From Mariniflexile maritimum (GTDB lineage: Bacteria; Bacteroidota; Bacteroidia; Flavobacteriales; Flavobacteriaceae), in assembly GCF_009746565.1 (NCBI RefSeq), contig NZ_WRPN01000001.1, positions 124,001-188,000 of the forward strand: a stretch of 64,000 bases of DNA, written 5' to 3'. Below the pieces are notes generated by a model that did no database searches, was not told the origin of the DNA, and saw nothing but the letters and a program-made list of their open reading frames with translations. Shown one piece after another: positions 3,959 through 23,064 of the stretch (the first letter of the stretch is position 1; each line of letters begins with the position of its first letter). The translations under genes and the position numbers were made by a program.

Positions 3959-4003
3959 TAAAAATAAGGTTTGTGTTTATATATTCTATCCTGTGGCATC
4001 CTG
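3959..4003 (-). promoter_or_regulatory. Direct-repeat promoter of the PL22-GH106 unit
   Basis: On the minus strand CAGGATGCCACAGGAT (4003 to 3988) is two CAGGAT copies with a 10-bp period. After 21 bp comes TATTTTTA (3966 to 3959), a 7/8 match to the Bacteroidetes -7 box TAnnTTTG. The repeat occupies the -33 region. The 18-mer around it is identical to the one in front of GH28 at 5397. Confidence 0.65.
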
Positions 4004-4026
4004 CTATGGCCTGCCAATAAGCAACT

Positions 4027-5397
4027 CTAATTTGGGGTTGTGCTAAAATTTAAAACATGCTCATGGATGTGTTTTTGTTGGCTTATTGAATCCACTTCAA
4101 CATTGTTCAGGAAAATATTTTTTACAGGAAGGGCTTCTTGACCTAAAATGCGCGACAGGAATTCTGTTTTGGTTGCTTTCACATTTTTTAAATAAACATC
4201 GTGAATAGGGGTCAATCTCCTTTCAATGGTCGGTACTAAGTCGCGCCATTGGTAGAAAACATCGGTCTCGATACCAAGTATGCCATTTTGTATGGCACCT
4301 GCGCGAATGTTTTCAACATAAATGTTTTTTACATAGCCACCACGGCGCTCGTTGGTCTTTATAAACACCAAATGGAACATTTTAGCGCCATCAACCACCT
4401 TACAATTTTCAACAAACACGTTTTCTATACCGCCAGATAGTTCGCTGCCAATGGCCAATAACTGGTGCCCGTTTTTCATGGTGCAATGGCGCATCACAAT
4501 ATTTTTACAGGGGGTGTTTAAGCGCCAAGCATCTTGGTTTCTGCCCGATTTTACCGCAATGGCATCATCACCTTGGTCGAAAACGCAATTTTCAATTAAC
4601 ACATTTTCGCTCATTTCTGGGTCCACGCCATCGTTGTTGTGGCCATGGGCATATACATTCAGGTTTCTAATAACAACGTCTTTGGAAAGGTAAGGGTGAA
4701 TGGTCCAGAACGGACTGTTTTCTATGGAAACACCTTCCAGCAAAATATGCTTGCTGCGGTTAAACTGTATAAATTGTGGCCGAAAATGGGCGGTATCGTT
4801 TACCATTTGGCGTTGCGCAACAGGTTTGTTGTAAGCGGCCAAATTGTAAAGCCGTTTTAAACTCTGCATGTGCGGTTCGGGGCGGGCAAACCATTTTTCC
4901 CAAACATCCATTTTAGCTTTTAGCTTGCCTGGGCCCGTAATGGCAATGTTTTCACAATTAAACGCGTAAATGAGCGGTGAGTAGTTATAACATTCCATGC
5001 CTTCCCAAGTGGTGTGCACTGCGGGCAAATAATCTTGTGGGTTTTCAGAAAAAAGTAATACCGCACCTTTGTTCAAATGAAGGTTTACGTTGCTTTTTAA
5101 ATGTATTTTTTTCGTTATCCATTCACCTTCGGGGATAACCACAACACCGCCAGCATTTTTATTGGCCTCTGTAATAGCATCGGCAATGGCCTTGGAAATG
5201 AGTTCCTTATCCCCTAGAACGGCACCAAAATCGGTAATTAAAAACTGCTTGCAATTGCTAAAATCTGGAATTTTGATAGTGGGCATTTTAAAAGGTGCTT
5301 CCACTTTTATTTCGGTTGTTTTAAGGTTGTGGTCATTCACCTTGCATGAAAAATGACTTAACACGCATGCCATGAGGGCTACTTTAAGGATGTTCAT
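4027..5397 (-). CDS. GH28 polygalacturonase-family enzyme, lipoprotein
   Basis: The 456-residue protein has a lipoprotein signal (ACVLSHFSC) and a parallel beta-helix sequence. The GH28 active-site blocks appear in order: NNDGVDPE, GDDAIAVKSGRN, GHQLLAIGSE and IKTNERRGG, corresponding to the NTD, DD, GHG and RxK blocks of polygalacturonases. GH28 enzymes hydrolyse alpha-1,4 galacturonic acid linkages in homogalacturonan or galacturonic acid-rhamnose linkages in rhamnogalacturonan. The beta-helix starts after an ITDFGA motif near residue 55, as usual. It is a single-gene unit, separated by 89 bp from the lyase gene, with its own direct-repeat promoter. Exact linkage specificity cannot be read from the sequence. 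Confidence 0.9.
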   Translation of the reverse strand: MNILKVALMACVLSHFSCKVNDHNLKTTEIKVEAPFKMPTIKIPDFSNCKQFLITDFGAVLGDKELISKAIADAITEANKNAGGVVVIPEGEWITKKIHLKSNVNLHLNKGAVLLFSENPQDYLPAVHTTWEGMECYNYSPLIYAFNCENIAITGPGKLKAKMDVWEKWFARPEPHMQSLKRLYNLAAYNKPVAQRQMVNDTAHFRPQFIQFNRSKHILLEGVSIENSPFWTIHPYLSKDVVIRNLNVYAHGHNNDGVDPEMSENVLIENCVFDQGDDAIAVKSGRNQDAWRLNTPCKNIVMRHCTMKNGHQLLAIGSELSGGIENVFVENCKVVDGAKMFHLVFIKTNERRGGYVKNIYVENIRAGAIQNGILGIETDVFYQWRDLVPTIERRLTPIHDVYLKNVKATKTEFLSRILGQEALPVKNIFLNNVEVDSISQQKHIHEHVLNFSTTPN

Positions 5398-5417
5398 CGT
5401 TTATTTTTTTCAGTCTT

Positions 5418-5462
5418 TAAAAATAACTCCGATTTTTAAAATTGCTATCCTGTGGCATCCTG
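5418..5462 (-). promoter_or_regulatory. Direct-repeat promoter of GH28
   Basis: CAGGATGCCACAGGAT on the minus strand (5462 to 5447) is followed after 21 bp by TATTTTTA (5425 to 5418). Both elements are identical in sequence and spacing to those at 3959-4003, although the surrounding bases differ. Confidence 0.65.
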
Positions 5463-5511
5463 TTTAAATTTAAAAATGATATGTTAAATCATCTAAAAAA
5501 CACAGAAAATT

Positions 5512-5523
5512 GTAATCGATTAC
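5512..5523. promoter_or_regulatory. Perfect 12-bp palindrome GTAATCGATTAC
   Basis: A perfect palindrome lies in the 304-bp divergent region 5398-5701, between the GH28 and SusC promoters. The core AATCGATT with a central CG resembles operators of LacI-type regulators. The same core occurs at 22926-22933 upstream of the GntR gene and GH28. No LacI-type gene is present in the window. The rest of 5398-5701 holds the two promoters and AT-rich sequence with no gene. Confidence 0.3.
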
Positions 5524-5627
5524 TAAAATTTAATTTTAAAGAAAATATTTTCATAAAAATTTGTTAAAACTATGTGACTGAATAACAAATAGTTAGATGG
5601 CACATAAACTAACTTATTGATTGTTAA

Positions 5628-5672
5628 CAGGTAAGAGCAGGATGGAACAACAATTTCTAATAAATAGATTTG
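5628..5672 (+). promoter_or_regulatory. Direct-repeat promoter of the pectin SusC-SusD operon
   Basis: CAGGTAAGAGCAGGAT (5628-5643) has CAGG copies 10 bp apart. After 21 bp follows TAGATTTG (5665-5672), a full match to TAnnTTTG. Transcription would start about 25 nt before the SusC ATG at 5702. Confidence 0.68.
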
Positions 5673-5701
5673 GTTTCAATAATTACTAAACTAAATGTTA
5701 T

Positions 5702-8700
5702 ATGAAAAACAAATTAATTCTATTAATGAGTTTGTTCATGTTTGCTTTCATGCATACATCAACATTTGCTCAGGAAAAAAAGGTTTCGGGGACAGTTACA
5801 GATCTCTCCAACTTGCCATTACCAGGTGTTAATATCATTATAAAAGGAACAAAAAAAGGAGCGAGTTCCGATTTTGATGGCAATTATAGTATTTCTGCAA
5901 CTGCTGGCCAAACCCTGGTGTTTTCTTATGTTGGTTTTAAATCTAAAGAACTTGTGGTTGGAAGTGCCAACACATACAATATTTCTTTAGAAACCGATGA
6001 TGAAGTTTTGGACGAGGTGGTAATAGTGGGGTATGGTACGCAAAAACGAACCATGACCACAGGCGCGGTATCATCAATTAAAACCGAAAATTTTGTAGAG
6101 CGGCCTATTTCTAGGGTTGACCAAGGACTTATTGGTCAAATTGCGGGTGTTCGCGTTAAACAAACCTCAGGTTTGCCAGGGCAACCGTTTAGCATTAATA
6201 TCCGCGGTACAGGATCTATTTCTGCGGGCAATGAGCCCTTATATGTCATTGATGGATTTCCAATTCATACCGAAGGATCGTCAAGTAGTGGCGGTTTTGG
6301 AAACGGTAGTCCGTTGGACAATATGAACCCAAATGATATTGCATCGGTTGAGATTTTAAAAGATGCCGCAGCCGCTGCCATTTATGGTTCTAGGGCTTCA
6401 AACGGTGTCGTTTTAATAACCACAAAAAGAGGTAAATCAGGAAAAGCGAAATTTACATTTAATACCTATTCAGGAGTTTCAAAAGAAGTAAAAAGAGTTG
6501 ACATGTTAAGTGCCGAAGGATGGATAGATAGAGCTAAAAATATGATAGACACTCAATGGGTAGCTTCAGGAATAGCGGGCGCATCTGCCGACCAGACCGT
6601 AGATGAACGGCGCGTACTTTATAATGCGGCCAGAAACCCTGATTTGGGACCAAACGAGTTCAATACTGGCTTCATGTACGACCCACGCTGGGACGTTCCA
6701 GGTCACCCAGGATTAGATTATATTAATTGGCAAGACATTATTTTCCGTAGAGGCGAATTTAACAACTATCAGGTATCAGCATCTGGAGCAACCGACGCGG
6801 TAAATTATTATGTTTCAGGAAATTATCAAAAAAACAAAGGTTATATTATTGGTACGGATTACAGTTTGTATTCGGCCAGAGCCAATGTTGACATCAATCT
6901 ATCGGATAGCTTTAAAATTGGCATCAATATTTCGCCTTCCTATTCTATAAAAAACGACCCAGGTGTTGAAGGTAAGGACAATGTAATACACAAAGCCCTT
7001 GGAGCGACTCCTGTATTTGAAAGTACCGTAAATGAAAATGGCGAAAAATATACTACGAAATATGCTTGGGGAAGCAGCACAACCAACATGTTGCCCCTTT
7101 TAAGCAGGGTAGGGAAAAACTCAATGTTTAGAAATCTACTTTCAGGTTATGCCAGTTACAACATCTTCAATAACCTAACACTAAAAAGTACCATCAATTT
7201 CGATAATTCGGATAACACAACCGAAACTTATACCCCAAACGATGTATTAACAAGTATAAGAGGTGGATACAGCACATATAGAAGACAAAATATTGTTAAT
7301 GAAAACACATTAACCTATCGTACAACAATAGCTGATGCCCATAATGTTACTTTACTTGCGGGTCAATCTTACAGTGCTTACCAGATAACCAGATCGAGTC
7401 TGTCTTCTGGAAATCTCTACAACAGCTTTACCATCCAAACCTTACCAAATGGTTCAATAGGTTATACAAATTCTGAAAAAAATGTTCAAATTTCATATTT
7501 CGGAAGGCTTCAATACGATTACAAGGAAAAATACCTGCTTTCTGCGAGTTTAAGGCGTGATGGCTCATCAAAATTTGGTTTTGAACAACGCTGGGGCACA
7601 TTCCCTTCAGTATCATTGGGATGGCGTGTTACCGAAGAAAATTTTATGAAAAATGTTAGTTGGTTGAGCGAATTAAAACTAAGGGGAAGCTCTGGTATAA
7701 ACGGTAGCAACAACATTGGCAACTATGCTGCGTTCTCAACTTTGGGCAGTTACAATTACGCATTAGGCGGTGCTACTGGGTTGGGACAAGGCGTATCTGG
7801 AATACCTAATCCTTTCCTACACTGGGAAGAATCAAAAACAAATGATATAGGGATGGATTTCGGTTTATTAAAAAACAGGATCACAGGGGTTTTTGATTAT
7901 TATAAAAAAACAAATACCGACCTTTTATTGCAAGTTCCTGCGTTGGCATCGTCAGGGTACACCAGTTACCTTTCAAACATAGGTGAAGTTGAAAATACAG
8001 GATGGGAGTTTGAACTAACAAGCGTTAACATAAGCAATAACGATTTTCAATGGAAAACCTCAGCAAACATTAGCCATAACGAAAACAAGGTATTGGCTTT
8101 AGGTCCAGATCAAGACAAAATTGAAATTGGTTCTAGTTGGGGCGGTGGCGTGCCATTTTACAAACTTGAGGTTGGCAAGCCCATGTACACCATTTTTGGA
8201 ATAAAACAAGACGGTGTGGTTACGCAAGCTGATATTGATGCTGGAGGTACCACATGGGGCGGTAAAGCCTTGGTTTTAGGAGACCCCCGCTATGTTGACC
8301 AGAACGGCGATAAAAAAATAACCACCGATGATAGGGTAGATTTAGGAAACCCAACACCAAAATATACTTGGGGCGTTACCAATACCTTTAAATACAAAGA
8401 TTTTGATTTGAATGTTTTGGTTGAAGGACAAAATGGAGGTTATATTTATAGTTTGTTAAGCCGGGGCATTAACCGTACTGGCATGGGAGCCGTTGAAAAC
8501 AACTTAGATGTCGATCCTGCTGTAAGAGGTAACTGGAAAACAAATTTTGGGTATGTGCCCAATACCGATTGGCTATATAAATCGGATTATGTAAGTATAA
8601 GAAACATCACATTAGGCTATGACCTTTCAAAAGCGTTAAAATCTATTAGCCGAATTGATAATGCCAGATTATATTTAAGTCTTGAAAACTGGTTCTATTG

Positions 8701-8842
8701 GGATAAATACGACGGTGGTTTTAACCCAGAAGCAACAAATACATCGGGAAGTAGCGATAGTAGATACCCAGTTCCAGCAGATTACGGTGGTGCTCCATTG
8801 GCAAAATCATTAGTAGTAGGACTTAACATTAATTTTAATTAA
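5702..8842 (+). CDS. SusC-like TonB-dependent outer-membrane transporter (pectin locus)
   Basis: The 1046-residue protein has a signal peptide ending near SSTFAQ, then the carboxypeptidase-regulatory-like domain that begins KVSGTVTDLSNLPLPGVNI. A TonB-box-like DEVVIVGYGTQ (about residues 103-113), a plug domain containing the typical LYVIDG and KDAAAAAIYGSRASNGVV, and a beta-barrel ending in a terminal aromatic-type strand (GLNINFN) follow. SusC proteins import oligosaccharides across the outer membrane with energy from TonB. Length is usual for the family. The partner SusD gene starts 7 bp downstream. Its position among GH28, GH105, GH106 and CE12 genes suggests rhamnogalacturonan or galacturonan oligosaccharides as cargo (inference). 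Confidence 0.95.
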   Translation: MKNKLILLMSLFMFAFMHTSTFAQEKKVSGTVTDLSNLPLPGVNIIIKGTKKGASSDFDGNYSISATAGQTLVFSYVGFKSKELVVGSANTYNISLETDDEVLDEVVIVGYGTQKRTMTTGAVSSIKTENFVERPISRVDQGLIGQIAGVRVKQTSGLPGQPFSINIRGTGSISAGNEPLYVIDGFPIHTEGSSSSGGFGNGSPLDNMNPNDIASVEILKDAAAAAIYGSRASNGVVLITTKRGKSGKAKFTFNTYSGVSKEVKRVDMLSAEGWIDRAKNMIDTQWVASGIAGASADQTVDERRVLYNAARNPDLGPNEFNTGFMYDPRWDVPGHPGLDYINWQDIIFRRGEFNNYQVSASGATDAVNYYVSGNYQKNKGYIIGTDYSLYSARANVDINLSDSFKIGINISPSYSIKNDPGVEGKDNVIHKALGATPVFESTVNENGEKYTTKYAWGSSTTNMLPLLSRVGKNSMFRNLLSGYASYNIFNNLTLKSTINFDNSDNTTETYTPNDVLTSIRGGYSTYRRQNIVNENTLTYRTTIADAHNVTLLAGQSYSAYQITRSSLSSGNLYNSFTIQTLPNGSIGYTNSEKNVQISYFGRLQYDYKEKYLLSASLRRDGSSKFGFEQRWGTFPSVSLGWRVTEENFMKNVSWLSELKLRGSSGINGSNNIGNYAAFSTLGSYNYALGGATGLGQGVSGIPNPFLHWEESKTNDIGMDFGLLKNRITGVFDYYKKTNTDLLLQVPALASSGYTSYLSNIGEVENTGWEFELTSVNISNNDFQWKTSANISHNENKVLALGPDQDKIEIGSSWGGGVPFYKLEVGKPMYTIFGIKQDGVVTQADIDAGGTTWGGKALVLGDPRYVDQNGDKKITTDDRVDLGNPTPKYTWGVTNTFKYKDFDLNVLVEGQNGGYIYSLLSRGINRTGMGAVENNLDVDPAVRGNWKTNFGYVPNTDWLYKSDYVSIRNITLGYDLSKALKSISRIDNARLYLSLENWFYWDKYDGGFNPEATNTSGSSDSRYPVPADYGGAPLAKSLVVGLNINFN

Positions 8843-8849
8843 AATTACT

Positions 8850-10388
8850 ATGAAAAAACATATTTATCTAATAGCAAATATTTTTGCATTCCTCGTTTTA
8901 GTCTCATGTGAAGAAGAACTAAATCAAATTCCTTTATCACAAGGCACCACAGAGAATTTTTACTCTACGCAAAACGATTTTATCCAAGCCAGAAATGCCA
9001 CCTATTCCATAGCATTTCATGGCACGGGAACGTATGGTTATGCAAACAGAATATTGAACTTAAGTGAAACCAGATCCGACAATTTTTATGCAACCACCCA
9101 AGCATCAAGGGATTGGGAAGGCATCAATAATTTTTTCACATCCTTAAGTACAAACGGATACATTAATGAAGCTTATGTAAGTAACTACAACGCCATTTAC
9201 AAGGCCAATCAATTGTTGGAGCAATTAGCGGCAAAGGGCGACATTATACCCGTAGTTGCCGATAGGACCAATATGGAAGCGGAAGCACGTTTTTTAAGGG
9301 CTTTCTGTTATTTCGACTTGATAAGATGGTTTGGCAGGGTGCCTTTAATCAAAAATACGCTATCCCCACAAGAGGTTTCAACCATTGGCAGAAGTCCCAT
9401 TACAGAAATTTATGATTTAATTCTTTCTGATTTACAATTTGCGGTTACAAATTTAGCACCATCCTACGATGCTGCCAATTTTGGTAGGGTTACAAAATAT
9501 GGCGCAAAAGGATTGTTGGCTCAAGTTTACATGACACGCTCTAGCCCAAACTACGGAATTGATGGATCTACATTGGGTTTAAATGAATGGGATAAAGCCT
9601 ATCAACAATTAAATGACATCAAAACAAGTGGCCTTTATGTGTTTTCCCCAACCTATGCTTCCATATTTACTGTTGAAGGTATTGCCAACAAGGAAAACGT
9701 ATTGGTTATCCCTTATACTCAAAATACAGGGAATAGTGTGGGTGGAAATTTTATGGTTGAATTAGGTTATGAGCCATATTTTGCTTCATTGAGTTTATCG
9801 CAACAAGGCTCTTTGGAATACCGCCCAATGTCGGCATCGCTTTTAAATTTGTTAAGCGCAACCGACAAGAGACGCATTTTCGGTATTGCTGATACTTATA
9901 CCGTAACCTCAGGAACCTATATTGGCACTTATACAGACCGTCCAACTATTAAAAAATACATCGACAAAACCAGATATGGTAACGGAAGAGAAGATTGGGG
10001 AGTAGATTTCATAGCCATGAGATACACCGATGTACTAATGTTAATGGCCGAATGTACATTGCACAGTGGCGGCGGCACCCAAGCCGATGTCGATGCCATT
10101 GTAAACGACGTTAGAGAGCGTGCTGGTTTGCCAAGAGATGCCAGTAACGTTACATTACAACAATTGTTTGAGCATAGAAGGGCTGAGTTTTTTGGCGAGG
10201 GCACCAGATGGTTCGATTTGATTAGGTCTGGTAACGCTATAACCATTATGAACAATTGGAAAGCTGCTGAAGATGCCTCCAACAGTATTGGAACCATCGA
10301 TAAAAACGCGTTGCTTTACCCAATTCCACTTCAAGAACTTTTAACAGTTCCAGGGCTTTACGATCAAAACCCAGGATACGATAATTAA
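8850..10388 (+). CDS. SusD/RagB-family surface glycan-binding lipoprotein (pectin locus)
   Basis: The 512-residue protein has a lipoprotein signal (LVLVSC) followed directly by acidic residues (EEEL), which fits a surface-export signal. It shows the TPR-rich SusD pattern: ARFLRAFCYFDLIRWFG near residue 150, YGAKGLLAQVYM near 212, and the C-terminal RRAEFFGEGTRWFDLIRSG. The end, LLYPIPLQEL then NPGYDN, is the standard SusD closing motif. SusD caps the SusC barrel and captures the glycan at the cell surface. It is co-transcribed with SusC and followed 27 bp later by a hairpin terminator, so downstream enzymes need the separate promoter at 10457. Confidence 0.95.
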   Translation: MKKHIYLIANIFAFLVLVSCEEELNQIPLSQGTTENFYSTQNDFIQARNATYSIAFHGTGTYGYANRILNLSETRSDNFYATTQASRDWEGINNFFTSLSTNGYINEAYVSNYNAIYKANQLLEQLAAKGDIIPVVADRTNMEAEARFLRAFCYFDLIRWFGRVPLIKNTLSPQEVSTIGRSPITEIYDLILSDLQFAVTNLAPSYDAANFGRVTKYGAKGLLAQVYMTRSSPNYGIDGSTLGLNEWDKAYQQLNDIKTSGLYVFSPTYASIFTVEGIANKENVLVIPYTQNTGNSVGGNFMVELGYEPYFASLSLSQQGSLEYRPMSASLLNLLSATDKRRIFGIADTYTVTSGTYIGTYTDRPTIKKYIDKTRYGNGREDWGVDFIAMRYTDVLMLMAECTLHSGGGTQADVDAIVNDVRERAGLPRDASNVTLQQLFEHRRAEFFGEGTRWFDLIRSGNAITIMNNWKAAEDASNSIGTIDKNALLYPIPLQELLTVPGLYDQNPGYDN

Positions 10389-10452: not shown

Positions 10453-10456
10453 AGTA

Positions 10457-10501
10457 CAGTATAGCACAGGATGCTTTTAAAAAAGTAAACCAATATATTT
10501 G
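10457..10501 (+). promoter_or_regulatory. Direct-repeat promoter of the GH105 operon
   Basis: CAGTATAGCACAGGAT (10457-10472) shows the 10-bp repeat with one weaker copy. After exactly 21 bp follows TATATTTG (10494-10501), a full TAnnTTTG match. The transcript would have a leader of roughly 90 nt before the ATG at 10601. Confidence 0.65.
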
Positions 10502-10600: not shown

Positions 10601-11944
10601 ATGAAGCTTTCAAAAAAAAAAATGATAAACGCCCCCGTTATTGCATTATTGATATGCTTTAATGCTGCTGCCCAGATTAACGACGCAACGGCACCGTTGC
10701 ATGCCCTTCAGCCAGAATATCCTACGCCTTACATAGTGCCACAAAATGAGAGTATTAAACAGGTTTTAAACCGGGTGCATAATTTTCTTGAAGCAAATAG
10801 TGCCGATAAAATAATTAATGCCTCTACCAAGGCCGAAATAACGGACTTTAAAAAAAACAAAGATGTAGATATTACGTTTGAACCCGGCGCCTTTAGACTA
10901 ACCAGTTATGAATGGGGCGTTACCTATGCCGGTATGCTATTGGCCTATGAAGCTACGGGCGAAAACTATTTTGCCGATTATTCAAACAAACGCATTAAAT
11001 TAATTGCAGATGTGGCCGAAAATTTTCCTGCAAAGCATATTAAAGACCCCGATATGCTTAAAACGCTGCATCCGGAGGCCCTGGATTTTGCCGGTGCCCT
11101 GTGTGCCGCCTTCATAAAAGCAAAACAAGCAGGCCTAAAAACCGATGTGAACCCATTGGTAAATAATTACATCGATTTTATTAGCAACAAACAGTTTAGG
11201 TTAAAGGATGGCACCTTGGCCAGAAACAGGCCTCAGGACAACACCCTGTGGCTTGATGATTTGTTTATGAGCGTGCCAGCACTGGCCCAAATGGGAAAAT
11301 ATACCGGCGATGTAAAATATTTTGACGATGCCGTTAAACAGGTAAAACAATTTTCCGAAAGGATGTTCAACCCTCAAAAAGGCATCTTCATGCACGGGTG
11401 GGTTCAAGATATGGGGGTGCACCCGCAGTTCCATTGGGGAAGGGCCAACGGGTGGGCCGTTATGGCCATGGTAGAATTGTTGGAAGTTTTGCCAAAGGAC
11501 CATCCAGGTTATGCTGAAGTTCTGTCGCAATTACAGGCACATATTGCAGGCTTGGTCAACTATCAAGATGGAACAGGGTTTTGGCATCAGCTTTTGGACA
11601 GAAATGATTCCTACCTTGAAACCTCAGCAACGGCCATTTATACCTATGCCATTGCTAGAGCCATCAATCGGGGTTATATTGATAAAATGGCATACGCTCC
11701 CGTGGTATTACTTGGTTGGAATGCTGTGGCCACAAAAGTAAACGATAAAGGTCAGGTTGAAGGCACTTGTGTGGGTACCGGTATGGCGTTCGACCCTGCT
11801 TTTTATTATTACAGGCCTATCAATGTTTTTGCCTCCCATGGCTACGGCCCTGTTTTACTTGCCGGCTCCGAAATGATTTTATTGTTGAAAAACAATGACT
11901 TTGAAATGAACGATAGTGCTTTACAATTGAAAGTAAAAAAGTAA
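10601..11944 (+). CDS. GH105 unsaturated rhamnogalacturonyl hydrolase
   Basis: The 447-residue protein has a signal peptide (IALLICFNAAAQ) and an (alpha/alpha)6-barrel sequence. The block TLWLDDLFMSVPALA carries the Asp pair at 219-220 that matches the catalytic region of GH105, and MHGWVQDMGVHPQFHWGRAN and the late CVGTGMAFDPAFYYYRP are also family signatures. GH105 enzymes hydrate and remove the 4,5-unsaturated uronic acid left by polysaccharide lyases at non-reducing ends, here probably in the periplasm. It is the first gene of a five-gene plus-strand unit (GH105, sulfatase, propeller glycosidase, rhamnose mutarotase, GH28), and the sulfatase begins 6 bp later. Confidence 0.92.
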   Translation: MKLSKKKMINAPVIALLICFNAAAQINDATAPLHALQPEYPTPYIVPQNESIKQVLNRVHNFLEANSADKIINASTKAEITDFKKNKDVDITFEPGAFRLTSYEWGVTYAGMLLAYEATGENYFADYSNKRIKLIADVAENFPAKHIKDPDMLKTLHPEALDFAGALCAAFIKAKQAGLKTDVNPLVNNYIDFISNKQFRLKDGTLARNRPQDNTLWLDDLFMSVPALAQMGKYTGDVKYFDDAVKQVKQFSERMFNPQKGIFMHGWVQDMGVHPQFHWGRANGWAVMAMVELLEVLPKDHPGYAEVLSQLQAHIAGLVNYQDGTGFWHQLLDRNDSYLETSATAIYTYAIARAINRGYIDKMAYAPVVLLGWNAVATKVNDKGQVEGTCVGTGMAFDPAFYYYRPINVFASHGYGPVLLAGSEMILLLKNNDFEMNDSALQLKVKK

Positions 11945-11950
11945 CCCAAC

Positions 11951-13324
11951 ATGATTTTTCAAACGGATAAAGTCTTTCTTGTTTTAATGGTTTTTATAGG
12001 ATTGTTTTCTTGTAAAGAAATTCCAAGGGAAACCAAGAAACCCAACCCGCCCAATATTTTGGTAATCATTGCCGATGATGCCGGTTGGAACGATGTGGGC
12101 TACAATGGCTCAGAAATCCACACGCCAAACATCGATGGGCTGGCAAACAACGGCGTACAACTTAATAGGTTTTACGCCAACCCCACATGCTCTCCCTCGC
12201 GTGTGTCGTTGTTAACGGGCATGCCGGCAAGTCGCCTAGGTATTGTGGCGCCCATAAGCGATAAAAGCGATAAAACCCTGCCAGATTCTATAACCACCTT
12301 GCCCCAAGCATTAAAAAAACAAAACTATCAAACAGCCTTATTTGGGAAATGGCATTTGGGATTAAATATTTCCAACGGGCCCAATGCTTTTGGTTTCGAT
12401 TATTCGTATGGGTTTCTGCATGGGCAAATAGACCAATATACGCATCGCTATAAAAACGGCGATGCCAGTTGGTACAGAAACAATGAAATGATTGAGGAAG
12501 CAGGCCATACCACCGATTTGGTGACCCAGGAAACCATCAATTGGCTGACCAAAAAAAGGGATGTTTCCAAAAACTTTTATGTTCAATTGGCATACAGTGC
12601 GCCACATTTTCCTTTGCAGGAGGAAGATAGGTGGAAAGAACCTTATCTGGAAACTATCAAAAATGGTTCGCGAAGGGATTTTGCCGCAGCCATGGCACAC
12701 ATGGATTATAGCATTGGGTTGGTTTTGGAAACTTTAAAGCAACAGAATTTAGAAGACAATACCTTGGTTATTTTCATAAGTGATAACGGCGCCATGGAAA
12801 ATTGGTATCCAGAAAATCAATATGATGGTAAATTTAAACCAAACCCGGTTTTGGGCAGTAATGAACCTTTGCGCGATTGGAAAACCTCAAACTATGAGGG
12901 CGCCATTCGTGTACCAGCAATTATGTATTGGAAAAACCATTTAAAAGCTTCCAAAAATGAAAATTATATGTCGGTTTCAGATGTAATGCCAACTCTGCTT
13001 TCTTTGGTTAATCAAAATATACCTAAAGACGTTGAAGGGGTCAATGTATGGCCATCAATTTTAAATTCAAAAACCGAAACACATCACGATATCTACATTA
13101 GAGGGCATAAACAAGAAAGCTTGATACATAAACCATGGAAAATTATTAGAACCCGTAACAAACATAATTCGCCACCTTTATATGAACTTTTCAATATAGA
13201 GATTGACCCGGAAGAAAAACAAAATATTATAGATACAGATGACGACGTTACTTCAACAATGAAACAATTATTAAACAAGCAATTTGCCAAAGACGATAAA
13301 ACGGTAAACGTAGAATTGAAATAA
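11951..13324 (+). CDS. S1-family type I sulfatase, lipoprotein
   Basis: The 457-residue protein has a lipoprotein signal (GLFSC, Cys21). The sulfatase N-terminal metal site PPNILVIIADDAGWNDVGY is followed by the maturation motif CSPSR at Cys80, which a formylglycine-generating enzyme would convert to the catalytic residue. HGQIDQ, the SDNGAMENW block and GKWHLG are further S1 features. Such enzymes release sulfate from sulfated glycans in the periplasm. It is tightly packed in the GH105 operon, so the substrate of this locus appears to carry sulfate, which land-plant pectin normally does not. The S1 subfamily was not determined. A matching formylglycine-generating enzyme is not in the window. 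Confidence 0.92.
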   Translation: MIFQTDKVFLVLMVFIGLFSCKEIPRETKKPNPPNILVIIADDAGWNDVGYNGSEIHTPNIDGLANNGVQLNRFYANPTCSPSRVSLLTGMPASRLGIVAPISDKSDKTLPDSITTLPQALKKQNYQTALFGKWHLGLNISNGPNAFGFDYSYGFLHGQIDQYTHRYKNGDASWYRNNEMIEEAGHTTDLVTQETINWLTKKRDVSKNFYVQLAYSAPHFPLQEEDRWKEPYLETIKNGSRRDFAAAMAHMDYSIGLVLETLKQQNLEDNTLVIFISDNGAMENWYPENQYDGKFKPNPVLGSNEPLRDWKTSNYEGAIRVPAIMYWKNHLKASKNENYMSVSDVMPTLLSLVNQNIPKDVEGVNVWPSILNSKTETHHDIYIRGHKQESLIHKPWKIIRTRNKHNSPPLYELFNIEIDPEEKQNIIDTDDDVTSTMKQLLNKQFAKDDKTVNVELK

Positions 13325-13337
13325 ACAGAAACACTAA

Positions 13338-14351
13338 ATGAAATTAAAATTTGCCTATCTATTTTTAATGCTATGCTGTTTATCCTGTTTTGCCCAAAAA
13401 ACGGACCACGCTACAAAAAACAATATGGCAGACAAGCCTTTGTTTAGGGACCCGGTATTTGATGGGGCTGCCGACCCATCGGTTATTTGGAACAAACACG
13501 AAAAAAAGTGGTTTATGTTTTATACCAATAGGCGTGCTAAAGATTCCACAGCTCGTGGCGTGGCTTGGGTACATGGCACTAGAATTGGTATAGCAGAATC
13601 CTATGATGGTGCGCATTGGACCTATAAAGATACCTGTAATATAGATTATCAAATTAAAGATGTTACCCATTGGGCACCCGATGTTATGGAGCACAAAGGT
13701 ATTTACCACATGTATTTAACTATTGTTCCGGGTGTTTTTGAAGATTGGTACCACCCGCGTTATATCATTCATCTAACCAGTGAAAATTTAACTGATTGGA
13801 AGTTTCAATCGCAATTAAAATTAGCCTCCGAGCGCTGTATTGATGCTTCCGTTTTTCAATTGCCAAACGGTACTTGGCGTATGTATTACAATAATGAGAA
13901 TGATGGAAAATCCATTTATTATGCCGATAGCAACGATTTATATCATTGGGTGGATAGCGGGAAAAAAGTTGTAAAAGATAGGGGGGAAGGCCCCAAGGTA
14001 TTCAAATGGAAAGGGAAAAACTGGATGGTAAACGATGCCTGGAATGGCTTGGGGGTTTATTCATCGGAAGATTTTACCAATTGGACCCGTCAACAACACA
14101 ACATCTTGCAAATTCCGGGTACAGGAATGGATGATGCCGTAATAGGTGGGCATCCTGATGTCGTTGTGAATGGCGATAAGGCCTATGTTTTTTACTTTAC
14201 ACACCCGGGAAGATTGCCAGAAAACAAAGGAGAGGACACCTACCAAACCCGACGAAGCTCTATTCAGGTAGCCGAACTGGAATATGTTAATGGCAACATT
14301 ATTTGCAATAGAAACAAACCGGTATTTATTAACTTAAAATTTACTGAATAA
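13338..14351 (+). CDS. Exported five-bladed beta-propeller glycosidase-like protein (GH43 clan type)
   Basis: The 337-residue protein has a signal peptide (LMLCCLSCFAQ) and GH43/GH117-like blade features: RDPVFDGAADPSVIWN with a candidate base Asp, THWAPDVMEHKGIYHMYLT, CIDASVFQLPNGTWRMYY with a second Asp, and RGEGPKVFKWKGKNWMV with a candidate acid Glu. This three-carboxylate layout is that of retaining or inverting five-bladed propeller glycosidases. I do not recognise the specificity. Its TAA overlaps the ATG of the rhamnose mutarotase gene (TAATG), indicating translational coupling and a shared role in handling rhamnose-containing products. Confidence 0.72.
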   Translation: MKLKFAYLFLMLCCLSCFAQKTDHATKNNMADKPLFRDPVFDGAADPSVIWNKHEKKWFMFYTNRRAKDSTARGVAWVHGTRIGIAESYDGAHWTYKDTCNIDYQIKDVTHWAPDVMEHKGIYHMYLTIVPGVFEDWYHPRYIIHLTSENLTDWKFQSQLKLASERCIDASVFQLPNGTWRMYYNNENDGKSIYYADSNDLYHWVDSGKKVVKDRGEGPKVFKWKGKNWMVNDAWNGLGVYSSEDFTNWTRQQHNILQIPGTGMDDAVIGGHPDVVVNGDKAYVFYFTHPGRLPENKGEDTYQTRRSSIQVAELEYVNGNIICNRNKPVFINLKFTE

Positions 14352-14674
14352 TGAACAATAGTATTAGAAATGCCTTCAAAATGAAACTTAAACCTGGTTT
14401 TGAGGCCGAATATAAAAAGCGCCATGATGAAATTTGGCCAGAATTGGCAGCACTACTTTCAGAAACGGGTATTCAAGATTATAGCATTTTTTTGGATGAA
14501 GAAAGCCTAACCCTCTTTGCGGTTCAAAAAATAAGTAAAGATTATGATGAAGCCTATTTGCCAAACCACCCCATTGTAAAAAAATGGTGGGCCTTTATGG
14601 CAGATATTATGGAAACAAATGCAGACCGTTCGCCCGTTGCAAAACCTTTAAAGGAAGTGTTCCATTTAGATTAA
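14351..14674 (+). CDS. rhaM: L-rhamnose mutarotase
   Basis: The 107-residue protein matches the RhaM/YiiL family in length and sequence: RNAFKMKLKPGFEAEYKKRH at the N-terminus, then HDEIWPELAALL, SIFLDEESLTLFA and a C-terminal WWAFMADIMETN block. It interconverts alpha and beta anomers of L-rhamnose so that the isomerase can use the sugar. There is no signal peptide, so it acts in the cytoplasm. Its start overlaps the stop of the preceding glycosidase gene. Its presence is the best evidence that the locus liberates L-rhamnose, in agreement with GH106 at the left edge. Rhamnose isomerase, kinase and aldolase genes are not in this window. Confidence 0.93.
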   Translation: MNNSIRNAFKMKLKPGFEAEYKKRHDEIWPELAALLSETGIQDYSIFLDEESLTLFAVQKISKDYDEAYLPNHPIVKKWWAFMADIMETNADRSPVAKPLKEVFHLD

Positions 14675-14715
14675 AATTTTCAGTAATTTGTAAAACATCC
14701 AATTTAAAAAATATA

Positions 14716-16038
14716 ATGAGAAATTTATTGACTTTTATTATTTGTGTAGCTTCATTTCTGCAAAATAGCCATTCGCAAAACAACAATAACACCTTTCCCG
14801 ACGGGACTGAAATTCCAGCTTGGTTTTCGGATGTTTCAAAAATAAAGATTGAGGATTTGGGCAAACAATATATCGTTACCAACTTTGGGGCTGTAAGCGA
14901 TAGTACCGTTTTACAAACAGCCACCATCCAAAAAATAATTGATAGGGCCAGTAATGAAGGCGGCGGCGTTATAATTATTCCCAAAGGTACATTTTTAAGC
15001 GGTGCATTGTTTTTTAAACCCAATACCCATTTGCACGTTTCTGAAGGGGGCACTTTAAAAGGTTCGGATGATATTGCCCATTATCCCATCATGCCTTCAA
15101 GAATGGAAGGACAAAATTTGGATTATTTTCCGGCCTTGGTGAATGCCTACGGGGTGGATGGTTTTACCATTTCGGGAACCGGAACCATTAATGGCAACGG
15201 GCTTAAATATTGGGAAGCGTTCTGGGACCGAAGAAAGGAAAACCCCAACTGTACAAATTTGGAGGTTTCAAGGCCACGTTTGGTGTTTATTTGGAAATCG
15301 AACAACGTACAATTGCAAGATGTGAAACTTATAAATTCGGGCTTTTGGAGCAGTCATTATTACCAGTGCAATAATCTGAAAATATTGGATTTGTACATTA
15401 CTTCACCGCACGAACCCGTTAAGGCGCCCAGTACCGATGCCATAGATATAGATGTATGCACCAATGTGCTTATCAAAGGCTGTTATATGGCGGTGAATGA
15501 TGATGCCATTGCCCTTAAAGGCGGAAAAGGCCCGTGGGCAGATATTGTGCCAAACAACGGTGGGAATGCCAATATTATTATTGAAGATTGCGATTTTGGG
15601 TTTTGCCATTCGGCCTTAACCTGTGGCAGTGAATCCATTCATAATAAAAATATCTTGATGAGGAACTGCACGGTGAACAATGCCCAAAGATTGTTATGGC
15701 TTAAAATGAGACCAGATACGCCACAAAAATATGAGTTTATTACGGTAGAAAACATAAAAGGGTCGGCAAAAAGCATGATATTTGTGAAGCCATGGACGCA
15801 GTTTTTCGACCTAAAAGGAAGAGAGGAAGTGCCTTTGTCTTATTGCGACCATATTACCATGAGGAACATTGAATTTGAATGCGATGTGTTTTATGATATG
15901 AAAATTACCGAATACGACCGTCTTTCAAACTTTACTTTTGAAAATTTGAAAGTGAAGGCCAAAAATGCCGATTACGATAAAAGTATTATAGACGGATTAA
16001 CCCTAAAAAATGTTTACTTAGTGCCTTACAAAATGTAA
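14716..16038 (+). CDS. GH28 family enzyme, exported
   Basis: The start at 14716 is chosen because it gives a proper signal peptide (MRNLLTFIICVASFLQNSHS); the frame is open further upstream but only into the mutarotase gene. The 440-residue beta-helix protein shows the GH28 blocks STDAIDIDVC, NDDAIALKGGKG, CHSALTCGSE and LKMRPDTPQ. Compared with the GH28 at 4027 the last block reads LKMR rather than IKTN, so the two are likely to act on different linkages, for example an exo-galacturonidase for rhamnogalacturonan oligosaccharides. It is the last gene of the GH105 unit. Its 3' end overlaps the convergent CE12 gene by 13 bp. Confidence 0.9.
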   Translation: MRNLLTFIICVASFLQNSHSQNNNNTFPDGTEIPAWFSDVSKIKIEDLGKQYIVTNFGAVSDSTVLQTATIQKIIDRASNEGGGVIIIPKGTFLSGALFFKPNTHLHVSEGGTLKGSDDIAHYPIMPSRMEGQNLDYFPALVNAYGVDGFTISGTGTINGNGLKYWEAFWDRRKENPNCTNLEVSRPRLVFIWKSNNVQLQDVKLINSGFWSSHYYQCNNLKILDLYITSPHEPVKAPSTDAIDIDVCTNVLIKGCYMAVNDDAIALKGGKGPWADIVPNNGGNANIIIEDCDFGFCHSALTCGSESIHNKNILMRNCTVNNAQRLLWLKMRPDTPQKYEFITVENIKGSAKSMIFVKPWTQFFDLKGREEVPLSYCDHITMRNIEFECDVFYDMKITEYDRLSNFTFENLKVKAKNADYDKSIIDGLTLKNVYLVPYKM

Positions 16039-17522
16039 TCTCTTAAACCTATTTCTTTTGAGTTTTTAAGTATTTCAGCAACAAGTTTTGCGGTAAACGT
16101 GGCACCTTCCAAATTGGTATGTGTATGGTCCTGCGGAAAGAAATCCTTTACTTTATCCTTTCCCAAAGTTTCGTAGGCTTTGGCAACCACATCGTTAACA
16201 TCTATAAAAAAAACATCTTCTGCCATGGCAACTTCCTTGGCCCATTTCACATAGGTTTCAGTTCTTCTTTCTACGTTTCCATTTGGCCATTCGTTACGGG
16301 GCGTTAAGCTTAAAACAATGGGTTTTGCACCTTTGTCTTTGGTTTCTTGAATCATTTTTTTTAGGTACCAGCCGTACGTGTGCACTGTTTTAACACCAGT
16401 ACTATCGCGCATCACTTTCTGGGTTTCGTCTCCAATACCTTGTAGGGAGCCTCTGTATTTGGCCTTGTCAATATTTCCAGCATCATTGTGACCGAATTGG
16501 ATAATTACAAAATCATCTTGTTGAAATTCTTTTTTTGCGGCGTCCCATAACCCTTCATAAATAAACGTTCTGGTGCTTCTGCCACCTCTTGCCATGTTGA
16601 TAACGTTCACTTGTGTGGTGTCGCAAAACTGCGGAAAAGGCACGCCCCAGCCAATGGTGTTTGGGTTGCTGCTGCTTGCCATGGTGGAATCGCCAATTAA
16701 AAAAATATGCTTTTTTCTGGGAAGCTCTATTTTGGGGTTTGAAACTATATAATTTTTAAGCGAATTGGTTGTGCTTTTTAATTCGCCTATAATAATGGAA
16801 GCGGCCATAAGTGCGCCCCTTGCCGATGTATGGGTGTGGTCGCGTTTATAAAAATAAGTGCCCGTAACCTGCTCTTGTCCCAGTTTTTCTAATTTGGAGG
16901 CCATTTTATCGTTCAAATCAATAAAAGTGACGTTGTTTCTTTTGGCTATTTGTTTGGCCCATAATCCGTACGAGGTATTGTTTCTTGGTACTTTGCCCTC
17001 TTTCCAATCGTTTCTAGGTATTGGCGACATTATTACTGGAATCGCACCTTTTGATTTCGCATCTTTTACAATTTTTTCGATGTACCAACCATAGCTATGC
17101 ACAATTTCGTGCTTTTTGGTAATCATGTTGTCAATTTCCTCGGTTTCGTTTCCTATGCCTTTAATGGTGCCACGGGCCCTAATGGTGTCGTTTACAGGGC
17201 CGTCGTCGTTATGCCCAAATTGTATTAAAACATAATCGCCCGCCTTTAGTTTATTGTTTACGGCATCCCATAAGCCTAAATTTTGAAAGGTTCTGCTGCT
17301 GGTGCCGCCCAATGCGTGATTTTCAACTGAAACTTGGGTGCTGTCCAGAAACTGACCAATAAAATCGCCCCAACCCCAAAGACCGCCAGAACCATCACCT
17401 TTACCATTTTTTACTGTTGAATCGCCCACAGCATACACCGTTGGCTTTATGTTTTGTGCATGGAAGCAACTTGTAAATAAAAAAGTTGTAAAAAGAATCG
17501 TTAGAAGTTGTAATGTTTTCAT
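16026..17522 (-). CDS. Two-domain CE12 rhamnogalacturonan acetylesterase (tandem SGNH)
   Basis: The 498-residue protein carries two complete SGNH-hydrolase domains behind one signal peptide. Domain 1 has GDST (Ser35), GHND (103-106) and DHTH (228-231). Domain 2 has GDST (Ser279), GHND (344-347) and DHTH (465-468). Both also share WGxxxxQF, GRSxRTF-type and HSYGWY/HTYGWY blocks. CE12 esterases remove acetyl groups from galacturonic acid in rhamnogalacturonan. Neither domain has lost a catalytic residue, so both may be active. It ends convergently with GH28 (13-bp overlap) and is the last gene of a CE12-GH2-CE12 minus-strand unit, 13 bp behind GH2. Confidence 0.9.
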   Translation of the reverse strand: MKTLQLLTILFTTFLFTSCFHAQNIKPTVYAVGDSTVKNGKGDGSGGLWGWGDFIGQFLDSTQVSVENHALGGTSSRTFQNLGLWDAVNNKLKAGDYVLIQFGHNDDGPVNDTIRARGTIKGIGNETEEIDNMITKKHEIVHSYGWYIEKIVKDAKSKGAIPVIMSPIPRNDWKEGKVPRNNTSYGLWAKQIAKRNNVTFIDLNDKMASKLEKLGQEQVTGTYFYKRDHTHTSARGALMAASIIIGELKSTTNSLKNYIVSNPKIELPRKKHIFLIGDSTMASSSNPNTIGWGVPFPQFCDTTQVNVINMARGGRSTRTFIYEGLWDAAKKEFQQDDFVIIQFGHNDAGNIDKAKYRGSLQGIGDETQKVMRDSTGVKTVHTYGWYLKKMIQETKDKGAKPIVLSLTPRNEWPNGNVERRTETYVKWAKEVAMAEDVFFIDVNDVVAKAYETLGKDKVKDFFPQDHTHTNLEGATFTAKLVAEILKNSKEIGLRDYIL

Positions 17523-17535
17523 AATGAAATTTTAA

Positions 17536-20403: not shown

Positions 20404-20409
20404 AATGTT

Positions 20410-21714
20410 TTAGTTACCGTCTGGTTTTGTGTTTTCAAAGCGTGTGCTCATGGGCAGCTTCCAACTACTAAAAATGTCGGGGTTTTTGGGGTTGTAGTTT
20501 GGTACATTGGGGTTTAGGTATTGGGCAATGTCCAAATTCAAATCTTTAATGCCTTGCACCACACATTTGGCAATTTCATTGGCGCCAAAACCGTTAAAGT
20601 GCGTGTTGTCTTCCAGCTTTTCTGTTTGCCCCGGAAAAGTGTTTGCAGGGTATTGCACAAAGGCTTTTCTTGAGGGTTCATCGCCCCAGGTTTCGTACAG
20701 GTAGGTGGTCATTTTTGTAAGGTCGATGAGTGGTACCTGCAAATTGGTTGCCACGTGTCGCATCGCATCGGGAAAATCGCCATGTGTTGGTTTTAAGGTG
20801 CCATCGTCGTTAAAGGCCCTCCGTTGCGTTGGTGTTACCAATACAGGAATACCACCTTTTTCCCTAAATTTAGTAATATATTCCTTTAAAGAGTTTGTGT
20901 ACAACCCCCAGGCGCCATTGCCTTCGCCTTTTATTTTTTCGTCATTATGTCCAAATTCAATAAAAACATAATCGTTTGGCTTTAAAAGGCTTAGTATTTT
21001 TTCCAATCGGTTTGTAGCTTTAAACGAACTTAAGGTGGCGCCCGATTCGGCATAATTGGCTATAACCACTTCATTTGAAAAATAATTGGTAATAAACTGC
21101 CCCCAAGAGGCCCAAGGCTCTAAATCTTGGTCGGTTACGGTGGAATCGCCAGCTAAAAACAGGGTTTTAACTGTTGAAGTGGGGATGATTTTTATATGCT
21201 GAACAGTAGGGTTTCCCAAGAATTCCAAGGTTAGTTTATCGTCCCAATTTAGTTGGTTTTTATCCCGATCCTTAATTTTAATATGTGTTGTGCCGTTAAT
21301 TTTGGGAGACCTCACATTAACGGTAAACGAACGCTGTGCCGTATGGTTTTTTCCTAAAGTGATTTCTTTTAGCATCAACCTTCTGGATTCGGCCTTTACC
21401 GTGGTTTTTGAAGGTTTTTCACCACCTAAAACCACCTCTATTTTGTAATGGCCCTCTGGAAGTTTCACCGAAAAATAAATGCTACTTTTGCTACTGATGT
21501 AGTTTTTTTTGAAAATAACATTTTCGGCAGACTCAAAATCGAAACCGTATCCTAAAGTGTTGGTGTACACGATGGGTTTATGTATTGAAATGCCCTTGTT
21601 TTTGTTGGCCTTCATCCCAAAATAGAAGCTTTTAGTAAATTGGTTTTGTGCTGAAACATTCAAAAAAAAGACGATGCTAAGTAGGAATATAAAAGATGTG
21701 CTTAGTTGTTTCAT
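20410..21714 (-). CDS. CE12 rhamnogalacturonan acetylesterase with N-terminal accessory domain
   Basis: The start at 21714 gives MKQLSTSFIFLLSIVFFLNV, a good signal peptide; a GTG five codons upstream is less likely. Of 434 residues, about the first 165 form a beta-rich domain (FYFGMKANKNKG, HYKIEVVLGG) that resembles malectin- or galactose-binding-like accessory domains. The SGNH domain follows with AGDSTVTDQ, ESGAT, GHND and DNTHFNGFG, where the last block carries the catalytic Asp and His. CE12 enzymes deacetylate rhamnogalacturonan. It is the first gene of the CE12-GH2-CE12 unit and has its own direct-repeat promoter. The GntR-type regulator is encoded directly upstream on the same strand. 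Confidence 0.88.
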   Translation of the reverse strand: MKQLSTSFIFLLSIVFFLNVSAQNQFTKSFYFGMKANKNKGISIHKPIVYTNTLGYGFDFESAENVIFKKNYISSKSSIYFSVKLPEGHYKIEVVLGGEKPSKTTVKAESRRLMLKEITLGKNHTAQRSFTVNVRSPKINGTTHIKIKDRDKNQLNWDDKLTLEFLGNPTVQHIKIIPTSTVKTLFLAGDSTVTDQDLEPWASWGQFITNYFSNEVVIANYAESGATLSSFKATNRLEKILSLLKPNDYVFIEFGHNDEKIKGEGNGAWGLYTNSLKEYITKFREKGGIPVLVTPTQRRAFNDDGTLKPTHGDFPDAMRHVATNLQVPLIDLTKMTTYLYETWGDEPSRKAFVQYPANTFPGQTEKLEDNTHFNGFGANEIAKCVVQGIKDLNLDIAQYLNPNVPNYNPKNPDIFSSWKLPMSTRFENTKPDGN

Positions 21715-21728
21715 CCATAAAATTTTCA

Positions 21729-21774
21729 CTAAAATAGTTTCAAAAAAAAAAAAAATCCATCCTGTACTATGATG
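21729..21774 (-). promoter_or_regulatory. Direct-repeat promoter of the CE12-GH2-CE12 unit
   Basis: On the minus strand CATCATAGTACAGGAT (21774 to 21759) holds one perfect and one weaker CAGGAT copy at the 10-bp period. After 22 bp follows TATTTTAG (21736 to 21729), one mismatch from TAnnTTTG. In addition CATCCTG (21758-21764) and CAGGATG (21778-21784) form a perfect inverted repeat with a 13-bp spacer, seen only at this promoter. Confidence 0.6.
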
Positions 21775-21818
21775 TATCAGGATGAATGCTTCAATTTTAT
21801 ATGGTGCGCCAACGGCAT

Positions 21819-22865
21819 TTAAACAGAATTACGCTCTATGTATTCAAAAACATTTCTAATTTTTTCTGTTTTATTGTTAAGAACCAAATAAGCCGCGGTT
21901 TCTCCCATCCCCTCAAAATGGGTGCTAACTACGTTGATGCCCAACAGGTTTTTTAAAGGCGTATCGTTATAGGAAATAATACCTATGTCTTTGCCAAGGA
22001 TTAAGTTTTTAGCACGGATCTGTTGTACTAAATTAACCAGATCGGTTTCTTCAATAATGATGTAGGTGTCTTTGCTGTCCAGATCCATATCATCATAAAT
22101 TTCATCTAAAATTTCAAAATCGAAGTTATGTTTTGAACAAAATTTTCTGAAGCCTTGAACAATTCTTAAAGGATAAGGATATACTGATTTTAATGGATAA
22201 ACTAAAACTAATTTATCATATTTCTTAAGTGTTTTTAAGCCCTTTTGTAGTGCATTGTAAATATCATCTTCAAAGTCTTGATATACTGTGCCGTATTCAC
22301 CACTAATTTCTAGTTTATTGTTGTCTAAAATTATGAGTTTGTCTTTAGGAATTTTCTCAATTATATCCTTTACCAGATTAGTGTTACTTATATGGTTCAA
22401 ATCCTCTGTTTTAAAATGTGGCATGATCACATAATAATCAAAAGCTCCGAGATTTCTTTCTAAAGTTCTAACAAAAAGAGACTCTTCACAGTGATAAACC
22501 GATAATGTTACATGGCCATTTATGCCAATGCTATTTACAAAAGAATTATAGATCATCATTTTGTAAGAACTTGGCTTGTTAATCATGAAGAAAATCTGAA
22601 TCTTTGAAATCAAATCGGTCTTGGCCGTATAATACCCCTTTCCTTTAACCGATACAATAACTTTTTGTTTTTTAAGTTGTTTATATGCTTTTTCAACGGT
22701 ATCCCGTGATAAATAGCACGACTCGCTCAACTCGTTTATAGAGGGGATTTTTTCTCCAATTTTTAAATTCCCTTTTGCAATGTCATTAATGATGGAATCA
22801 ACAATTTGCTTGTATTTAGGAACACGAGAATAATCGTTAATTTTTATTGTTATTATTTGAGACAT
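21819..22865 (-). CDS. GntR-type transcriptional regulator with a LacI/periplasmic-binding-like sensor domain
   Basis: The 348-residue protein starts with a GntR winged helix-turn-helix (VPKYKQIVDSIINDIAKG, GEKIPSINELSESCYLSRDT, VSVKGKGYYT; residues about 14-75). The remaining 270 residues form an alternating alpha/beta domain (SKIQIFFMINKP, YYVIMPHF, IILDNNK, DIGIISYNDTPLKNLLGINV) like the sugar-binding half of LacI proteins. The same architecture occurs in AraR of Bacillus. It probably senses a pectin breakdown product and controls the surrounding units, but ligand and operator are unknown. No direct-repeat promoter precedes it. Its codon use is more AT-rich than that of the neighbouring enzyme genes. 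Confidence 0.85.
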   Translation of the reverse strand: MSQIITIKINDYSRVPKYKQIVDSIINDIAKGNLKIGEKIPSINELSESCYLSRDTVEKAYKQLKKQKVIVSVKGKGYYTAKTDLISKIQIFFMINKPSSYKMMIYNSFVNSIGINGHVTLSVYHCEESLFVRTLERNLGAFDYYVIMPHFKTEDLNHISNTNLVKDIIEKIPKDKLIILDNNKLEISGEYGTVYQDFEDDIYNALQKGLKTLKKYDKLVLVYPLKSVYPYPLRIVQGFRKFCSKHNFDFEILDEIYDDMDLDSKDTYIIIEETDLVNLVQQIRAKNLILGKDIGIISYNDTPLKNLLGINVVSTHFEGMGETAAYLVLNNKTEKIRNVFEYIERNSV

Positions 22866-23019
22866 AAAAATTCTATAAAAAAAGTATAGTTATGAAAAGG
22901 TGATTGCAGCGAATTTAAAAAAATTAATCGATTGCATTAAGCTAAGCCTTAAAAATTAATCATAAATAATTAATAGCAATAAGAAACGGATATTGGTTGT
23001 AGAGCAATCTGGTCGTTAG

Positions 23020-23064
23020 CATGTAGGTACAGGACACATTACCTTCTTAAATTTTTTAAATTTA
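23020..23064 (+). promoter_or_regulatory. Direct-repeat promoter of the GH28-DUF4450 unit
   Basis: CATGTAGGTACAGGAC (23020-23035) is the most degenerate copy of the element. After 21 bp follows TAAATTTA (23057-23064), 7/8 to TAnnTTTG. Taken alone it would be weak; the matching spacing in five other promoters supports it. Confidence 0.5.

Follow-up and report, generated by a model that had tools for sequence, protein, structure and literature searches.

In a 64,000-nucleotide stretch of the Mariniflexile maritimum genome (contig NZ_WRPN01000001.1, positions 124,001 to 188,000 of the forward strand; hereafter, the window), six transcription units of a rhamnogalacturonan/pectin locus begin with the same tandem-repeat element, set at a nearly constant distance from the promoter. 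According to our analysis, this is a real, lineage-wide regulatory element, and it travels with a GntR-type protein encoded in the pectin locus, for which we propose the name RhaR. From the motif, its spacing, its rarity, its target genes, and its co-occurrence and synteny with the GntR gene, we infer binding, activation and an inducer, and consider it likely that the element serves as operator in a rhamnose regulon under a regulator of combined GntR and LacI type with class-II activation. For the broader proposal we have only a slight preference, namely that this is a Flavobacteriales-wide regulon in which a GntR-LacI class-II activator acts on a one-turn tandem repeat, so that one monosaccharide signal would open pectin and ulvan loci together with catabolism and replace polysaccharide-specific sensors.

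Architecture and rarity of the element

The six copies reported in a preliminary description of the window were all recovered where it had placed them, on the same strands (Table 1), and the 18-mer said to be common to two of them, CAGGATGCCACAGGATAG, is identical in elements 1 and 2. The alignment of 105 non-redundant sites gave as consensus an 18-bp tandem repeat with a 10-bp period, CAGKAYAG-YA-CAGGAYRS, without two-fold symmetry; ascertainment fixes those consensus positions that formed part of the search patterns. Nothing is conserved in this alignment between the element and the -7 box. Upstream of the 18-mer, no position of the 105 sites carries more than 0.3 bit of information, and no second conserved half-site is present 21 bp upstream.

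Two sets of sites were collected with no distance to the promoter imposed: in 30 of 31 sites of one set and 58 of 62 of the other (88 of 93 together), precisely 21 bp separate the 16-mer from the TA of the -7 box. Among sites chosen without a -7 box, TAnnTTTR occurred at 21 bp 13 and 35 times, and at other spacings once and three times, respectively. A larger set, partly ascertained with fixed spacing, showed the TA at 21 bp in 125 of 135 sites. Conversely, when the second box and the -7 box were the sole criteria of selection, the first box was still apparent in the 36 sites obtained (C in all 36, A in 94%).

In Flavobacterium psychrophilum the -7 box lies at -12 to -5 from mapped starts (PMC9723704; this and the other papers are cited from excerpts). 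With this placement the element spans about -49 to -32, with its centre near -40.5, a position which would fit a class-II activator (site near -41.5, fixed phase). A plain repressor site can hardly explain the fixed 21-bp phasing. The activator in contact with RNA polymerase that had been postulated at the repeat is thus favored by the rigid, unimposed spacing and by the position of the centre, as far as promoter geometry can suggest it. A missing -33 element was considered as proof of activator dependence and rejected: 43 motif-free TAnnTTTG promoters of the same genome likewise showed no TTG enrichment at any spacer from 12 to 39.

The layout represents a shared and meaningful promoter architecture that is very rare elsewhere in the genome. 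With up to two mismatches and a spacer of 21 bp, the window contained 6 matches against a mean of 0.27 (maximum 3) in 100 dinucleotide shuffles. Element 5 falls outside this count because of its 22-bp spacer, and one match, at 21150-21194, is none of the six elements; it lies within a gene on the opposite strand and is probably due to chance. A post-hoc pattern fitted to all six elements gave 6 matches in the window versus a mean of 0.0 in 100 shuffles.

The whole genome (3.66 Mb, 38 contigs) was searched with the reversed pattern as a control. The exact pattern CAGNW-N5-CAGGAY-N21-TANNTTTR, to which four of the six elements conform, was found four times, every time in the pectin locus and not at random places (control 0). 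When three mismatches to CAGNAT-N4-CAGGAT-N21-TANNTTTG were allowed, 22 matches were obtained and the control had 3; most of the weak matches are thus not above noise when taken alone. A family-tuned pattern with one mismatch gave 7 matches, comprising five of the six window elements and a divergent pair described below (control 0). Half-element matches were also collected (24 versus 3 in the control), and three of those outside contig 1 (L011, L012, L013) were found to fall inside open reading frames (ORFs) and discarded. When the window was scanned with a position weight matrix (PWM), only the six elements and a third tandem box at 4013 scored at least 10 bits; therefore, the GntR gene and the arabinan genes lack such an element upstream, in agreement with the preliminary description. 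The third box belongs to the PL22 promoter and keeps the same 10-bp register (it starts at 4013 and occupies window positions 4004-4013; CAGGCCATAG CAGGATGCCA CAGGAT).

Target genes and co-distribution with the GntR-type protein

The divergent pair of elements is located at C1:238358-238557, about 91 kb from the pectin locus, at the L-rhamnose catabolic operon. On one side, the operon is led by a bifunctional rhamnulose-1-phosphate aldolase/dehydrogenase (RhaEW) that scores above the curated cut-offs of the NCBIfam models NF006191, NF006189, and TIGR02632; it also includes L-rhamnose isomerase-like and FGGY kinase genes, both below their NCBIfam cut-offs. On the other side, a divergent unit contains a CCG-domain protein (LutA-like) and KduI. 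The genes between these two may be LutB and LutC, names that we assign tentatively.

In a panel of 99 genomes, the present one included, 47 exact sites were found in 12 genomes, versus 1 in the reversed control. All 47 fall within the window or within 31 retrieved regions, which were annotated by BLAST to the proteins of the present genome and, for a chosen part, with Pfam. The annotated sites serve rhamnose, rhamnogalacturonan, and ulvan genes. Sites directly upstream of rhaEW occur in L059, L063, L072, and L074. The rhamnogalacturonan genes with a site immediately upstream are a PL11 gene (L061) and units with GH28, PL22, GH105, and sulfatase genes (L075, L078, L087, L089); genes for ulvan-lyase-domain proteins, GH78 rhamnosidases, and sulfatases are preceded in the same way in L066, L067, L068, L077, L079, and L082. 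In L081 a PL28 ulvan lyase gene adjoins the site on its upstream side. The designation as a pectin-locus element is accordingly valid for all six units of the window and too narrow beyond them: the element also precedes the operon for rhamnose catabolism in this genome, and ulvan, other rhamnosidase, and sulfatase genes in relatives.

Orthologues of the GntR-type protein (53-100% identity) are present in 14 of the 99 genomes. Of these 14 genomes, 11 have the exact motif, compared with 1 of the 85 others (Fisher test, 3e-11, uncorrected for phylogeny). The three orthologue-bearing genomes without the exact motif (G002, G003, G054) have a PWM site before rhaEW, and the sole motif-bearing genome outside the 14, G025, encodes a GntR protein of 44% identity. 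A rhaEW gene was detected at E <= 1e-150 in 17 genomes, all of which also have a GntR match of at least 43%; a site of at least 20 bits lies upstream of 13 of the 17 genes, and in G007 the upstream region is cut by the contig end.

From an independent named collection, 80 loci were retrieved by the GntR protein alone. These loci contained 111 PWM sites in 70 of them, 53 directly before rhaEW, and the addition of 9 other loci raised this to 116 sites in 74 of 89 (reversed control 0). Of the 80 loci, 64 have a rhaEW gene (>60% identity) no more than 10 kb away from the GntR gene, and 7 have an AraC-type ORF. The preliminary description had set the GntR protein aside, yet it is this protein whose distribution follows that of the motif. 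In Chryseobacterium and Epilithonimonas loci (e.g., L198, L202, L225), the second box before rhaEW reads CGGGAT and not CAGGAT; genome G063 has both forms, CGGGAT before rhaEW (L242) and, at a GH28 unit (L078), CAGGAT.

The candidate regulator and competing explanations

The protein has an N-terminal GntR winged helix (PF00392, residues 17-79, 50.7 bits versus a cut-off of 27), in which LSRDTVEKAY is nearly invariant across 25 aligned relatives. No Pfam family covers the C-terminal part. In the AlphaFold2 model (mean predicted local distance difference test score 86.1, predicted template modelling score 0.68), this part, about residues 89-343, is predicted by Foldseek comparison to adopt a LacI/RbsR-like sugar-binding fold; the top matches in the PDB are RbsR, CelR, and LacI (E about 1e-10, probability 1.00), with RbsR 9ny7_B first (E 4.8e-11). 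The DNA-binding domain of AraR is also among the matches of the protein (4egy_A, E 2.2e-6). A second paralogue, 79% identical, is encoded at G000:C38:148348-149391 (L238:9348-10394).

Judged by sequence, the regulator is probably a rhamnose regulator of GntR-LacI type that acts as a class-II activator. The GntR-type protein, or its 79% identical paralogue, would bind the boxes CAGKAYAG and CAGGAYRS, which stand one helical turn apart and would place both DNA-binding domains on the same face of the DNA. Bound at about -49 to -32 from the start of a sigma-A promoter with a TAnnTTTG box, it would touch RNA polymerase and activate transcription when L-rhamnose, or a metabolite close to it, occupies the LacI-like domain. 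The uptake of rhamnogalacturonan-I (of ulvan in relatives) across the outer membrane and the cleavage of its backbone would then be co-induced with cytoplasmic rhamnose/lactate catabolism.

Several points weigh against this proposal. Most members of the GntR family repress, and their operators are inverted repeats (PMC5320631), so that a tandem operator combined with activation would be unusual. The support from the 80 loci is not fully independent, since 37 of the 105 PWM training sites come from them; the reversed control, however, used the same PWM. Ten of the 80 loci have no site, of which 4 hold rhaEW with its upstream region cut off and 6 hold no rhaEW. No site of at least 17 bits was found in the 20 kb around the GntR paralogue of the same genome. 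Several motif-associated genes (e.g., in L060, L065, L071, L073, L084) have no established link to rhamnose. In G025, where the 44% identical GntR gene is divergent from rhaEW, there is only a half site before rhaEW; in G029 and G042 (GntR identity 43%) there is no site before rhaEW, which has an ORF close upstream there. In addition, the regulator profiles covered the GntR protein and, among its potential competitors, one of the 18 AraC proteins. Neither a GntR rhamnose regulator nor the present motif was described for Flavobacteriales in the open-licence literature searched; both are likewise absent from the excerpts of PMC3870299, PMC3878776, PMC11669328, PMC9296495, PMC12323373, PMC5507952, PMC9723704, PMC5320631, and PMC12858550.

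The same GntR protein might instead bind the element as a repressor, blocking RNA polymerase until rhamnose frees it, which we regard as unlikely. Most characterised GntR and LacI-type sugar regulators are repressors, and there is overlap between the element and the upstream portion of the core promoter. However, a repressor needs no fixed phase to the -7 box, yet 88 of 93 sites collected without regard to that box have the TA at 21 bp; such a geometry could still arise if the element doubled as a sigma contact. Autorepressors often carry a site before their own gene, whereas the gene of this regulator has no element in the window, and the class-II position near -40.5 suits activation. The family statement in PMC5320631 also counts for repression.

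The preliminary description had pointed to an AraC-type or hybrid two-component regulator. Such proteins could be expected here, as AraC proteins are typical class-II activators, the Bacteroides RhaR is of AraC type (PMC3870299, PMC3878776), and in G007 and G049 the motif-bearing ulvan genes have an AraC orthologue (72-78%) nearby (L066, L081). This hint did not hold, and we consider such a regulator very improbable: the window has no AraC-domain match, all 18 AraC genes of the genome being elsewhere, and the best AraC candidate, whose orthologues are those near the ulvan loci, was found at E <= 1e-40 in 6 of the 99 genomes and in 3 of the 12 with the motif. AraC-type ORFs occur in only 7 of the 80 GntR loci, the 20 kb around the AraC candidate gene of the same genome (L246) contain no site, and no second conserved half-site is seen 21 bp upstream. 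Based on the missing AraC domain in the window, the poor co-distribution, and the lack of a 21-bp-period repeat, this regulator was rejected as the principal explanation. A DeoR-type rhamnose regulator is kept as a rival, though as the least probable of the binders considered, even if the RhaR motifs of DeoR type are imperfect direct repeats with a 10-11 bp period, as here (PMC3870299), and two DeoR-domain proteins are encoded in the genome; neither of their genes is on the contig of the pectin locus or rhamnose operon. A GntR-LacI-type activator responding to rhamnose is the explanation we prefer.

Table 1. Promoter elements of the pectin locus and the candidate regulator gene (window coordinates).
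Feature	Position	Strand	Boxes and spacer	-7 box	Unit served or basis of assignment
Element 1	3959..4003	-	4003-3986; 21 bp	TATTTTTA, 3966-3959	Oligogalacturonate lyase (PL22-like), GH106-like rhamnosidase (GH106 label seen in the orthologue, locus L087), GH105, esterase/GH43
Element 2	5418..5462	-	5462-5445	TATTTTTA, 5425-5418	GH28 gene, 4027-5397
Element 3	5628..5672	+	5628-5645	TAGATTTG, 5665-5672	SusC/SusD, 5702-10388
Element 4	10457..10501	+	10457-10474	TATATTTG, 10494-10501	GH105, sulfatase, GH43, rhaM, GH28; 10601-16038
Element 5	21729..21774	-	21774-21757, first box CATCAT; 22 bp	TATTTTAG, 21736-21729	GDSL, GH2, double GDSL; 21714-16026
Element 6	23020..23064	+	23020-23037, first box CATGTA	TAAATTTA, 23057-23064	GH28, DUF4450, GH43, 718-aa protein; 23084-31232
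RhaR, candidate regulator (GntR type; proposed name)	21819..22865	-			PF00392, predicted fold, co-distribution, synteny

Some further features of the locus deserve mention. The GDSL gene was called from a GTG (21729) that falls on the final base of the -7 box of element 5, and judging from this sequence the ATG at 21714 is more likely the true start. A near-palindrome, TGTAATCGATTACT, occupies window positions 5511-5524 between the divergent GH28 and SusC promoters; in 4 loci (L161, L162, L176, L177) the core AATCGATT also occurs in the 300 bp that precede the GntR gene, and it recalls LacI-type operators. Palindromic operators near the promoters were sought with 7-bp arms in six intergenic stretches, and were discarded as only AT-rich inverted repeats were found. 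Two inverted 19-mers, AAGTGTTAATATTACATTT (32169-32187) and AAATGTAAAACTAACACTT (32234-32252), are located between the arabinan SusC gene and an NrtR-family AraR-like gene (31418-32107), and are likely the operator pair of the product of the latter.

Comparison with known regulators

Glycan sensing in marine and soil flavobacteria is poorly known outside the Bacteroides models, and the present result supplies a testable regulon, operator, promoter geometry, and named regulator. If our proposal is true, the digestion of land-plant pectin and of green-algal ulvan would be joined under one rhamnose signal, a GntR-LacI protein would be using a tandem repeat in an activator position, and a simple sequence rule would predict rhamnose-glycan genes in Flavobacteriales.

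The AraR of Bacillus, a repressor with palindromic operators, consists of a GntR winged helix and a LacI-like sugar domain. The present protein resembles it in joining a GntR winged helix to a LacI-like fold, as far as the model predicts; in contrast to the AraR palindromes, the element described here is a tandem repeat in an activator position, with a putative operator role. AusR of Zobellia, reportedly a GntR repressor of alginate catabolism, is likewise a GntR regulator of a flavobacterial polysaccharide locus, but differs in its substrate, alginate, and in being a repressor.

FucR of B. thetaiotaomicron, listed as a GntR protein that controls fucose genes (PMC3878776), is comparable as a GntR-family sugar regulator. 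The GntR activators of the MocR subfamily (GabR, TauR, PdxR) often bind direct repeats (PMC5320631). These proteins carry an aminotransferase-like pyridoxal phosphate (PLP) domain, instead of which the present protein has a predicted LacI-like domain, and the MocR models match only its winged helix (PdxR, residues 17-88, 57.8 bits versus a cut-off of 320).

In the same phylum, the RhaR of Bacteroides (BT3768), of the AraC family, exerts positive, sugar-responsive control of L-rhamnose catabolism (PMC3870299, PMC3878776), the pathway that we assign to the present regulator. It belongs to another protein family, and its motif is a direct repeat with a 21-bp period (PMC3870299). Membership in this AraC-type RhaR group is contradicted by our data: a repeat of that period was not found, and linkage to an AraC gene is limited to 7 of the 80 loci, with rhaEW in 64. 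Furthermore, the reconstructed regulons of Bacteroides FucR and RhaR comprise one target operon each and, in the excerpts of PMC3878776, no polysaccharide loci, unlike the situation described here. In B. thetaiotaomicron, control of the rhamnogalacturonan loci is ascribed to the hybrid two-component systems HTCS_Rgu-1 and HTCS_Rgu-2 (PMC3878776). These control rhamnogalacturonan utilisation loci through direct repeats, as the present regulator would, but differ in their sites (12 or 14 bp, with spacers of 9 or 6 bp), their AraC-type DNA-binding domain, and the sensing of oligosaccharides at the membrane (PMC3878776).

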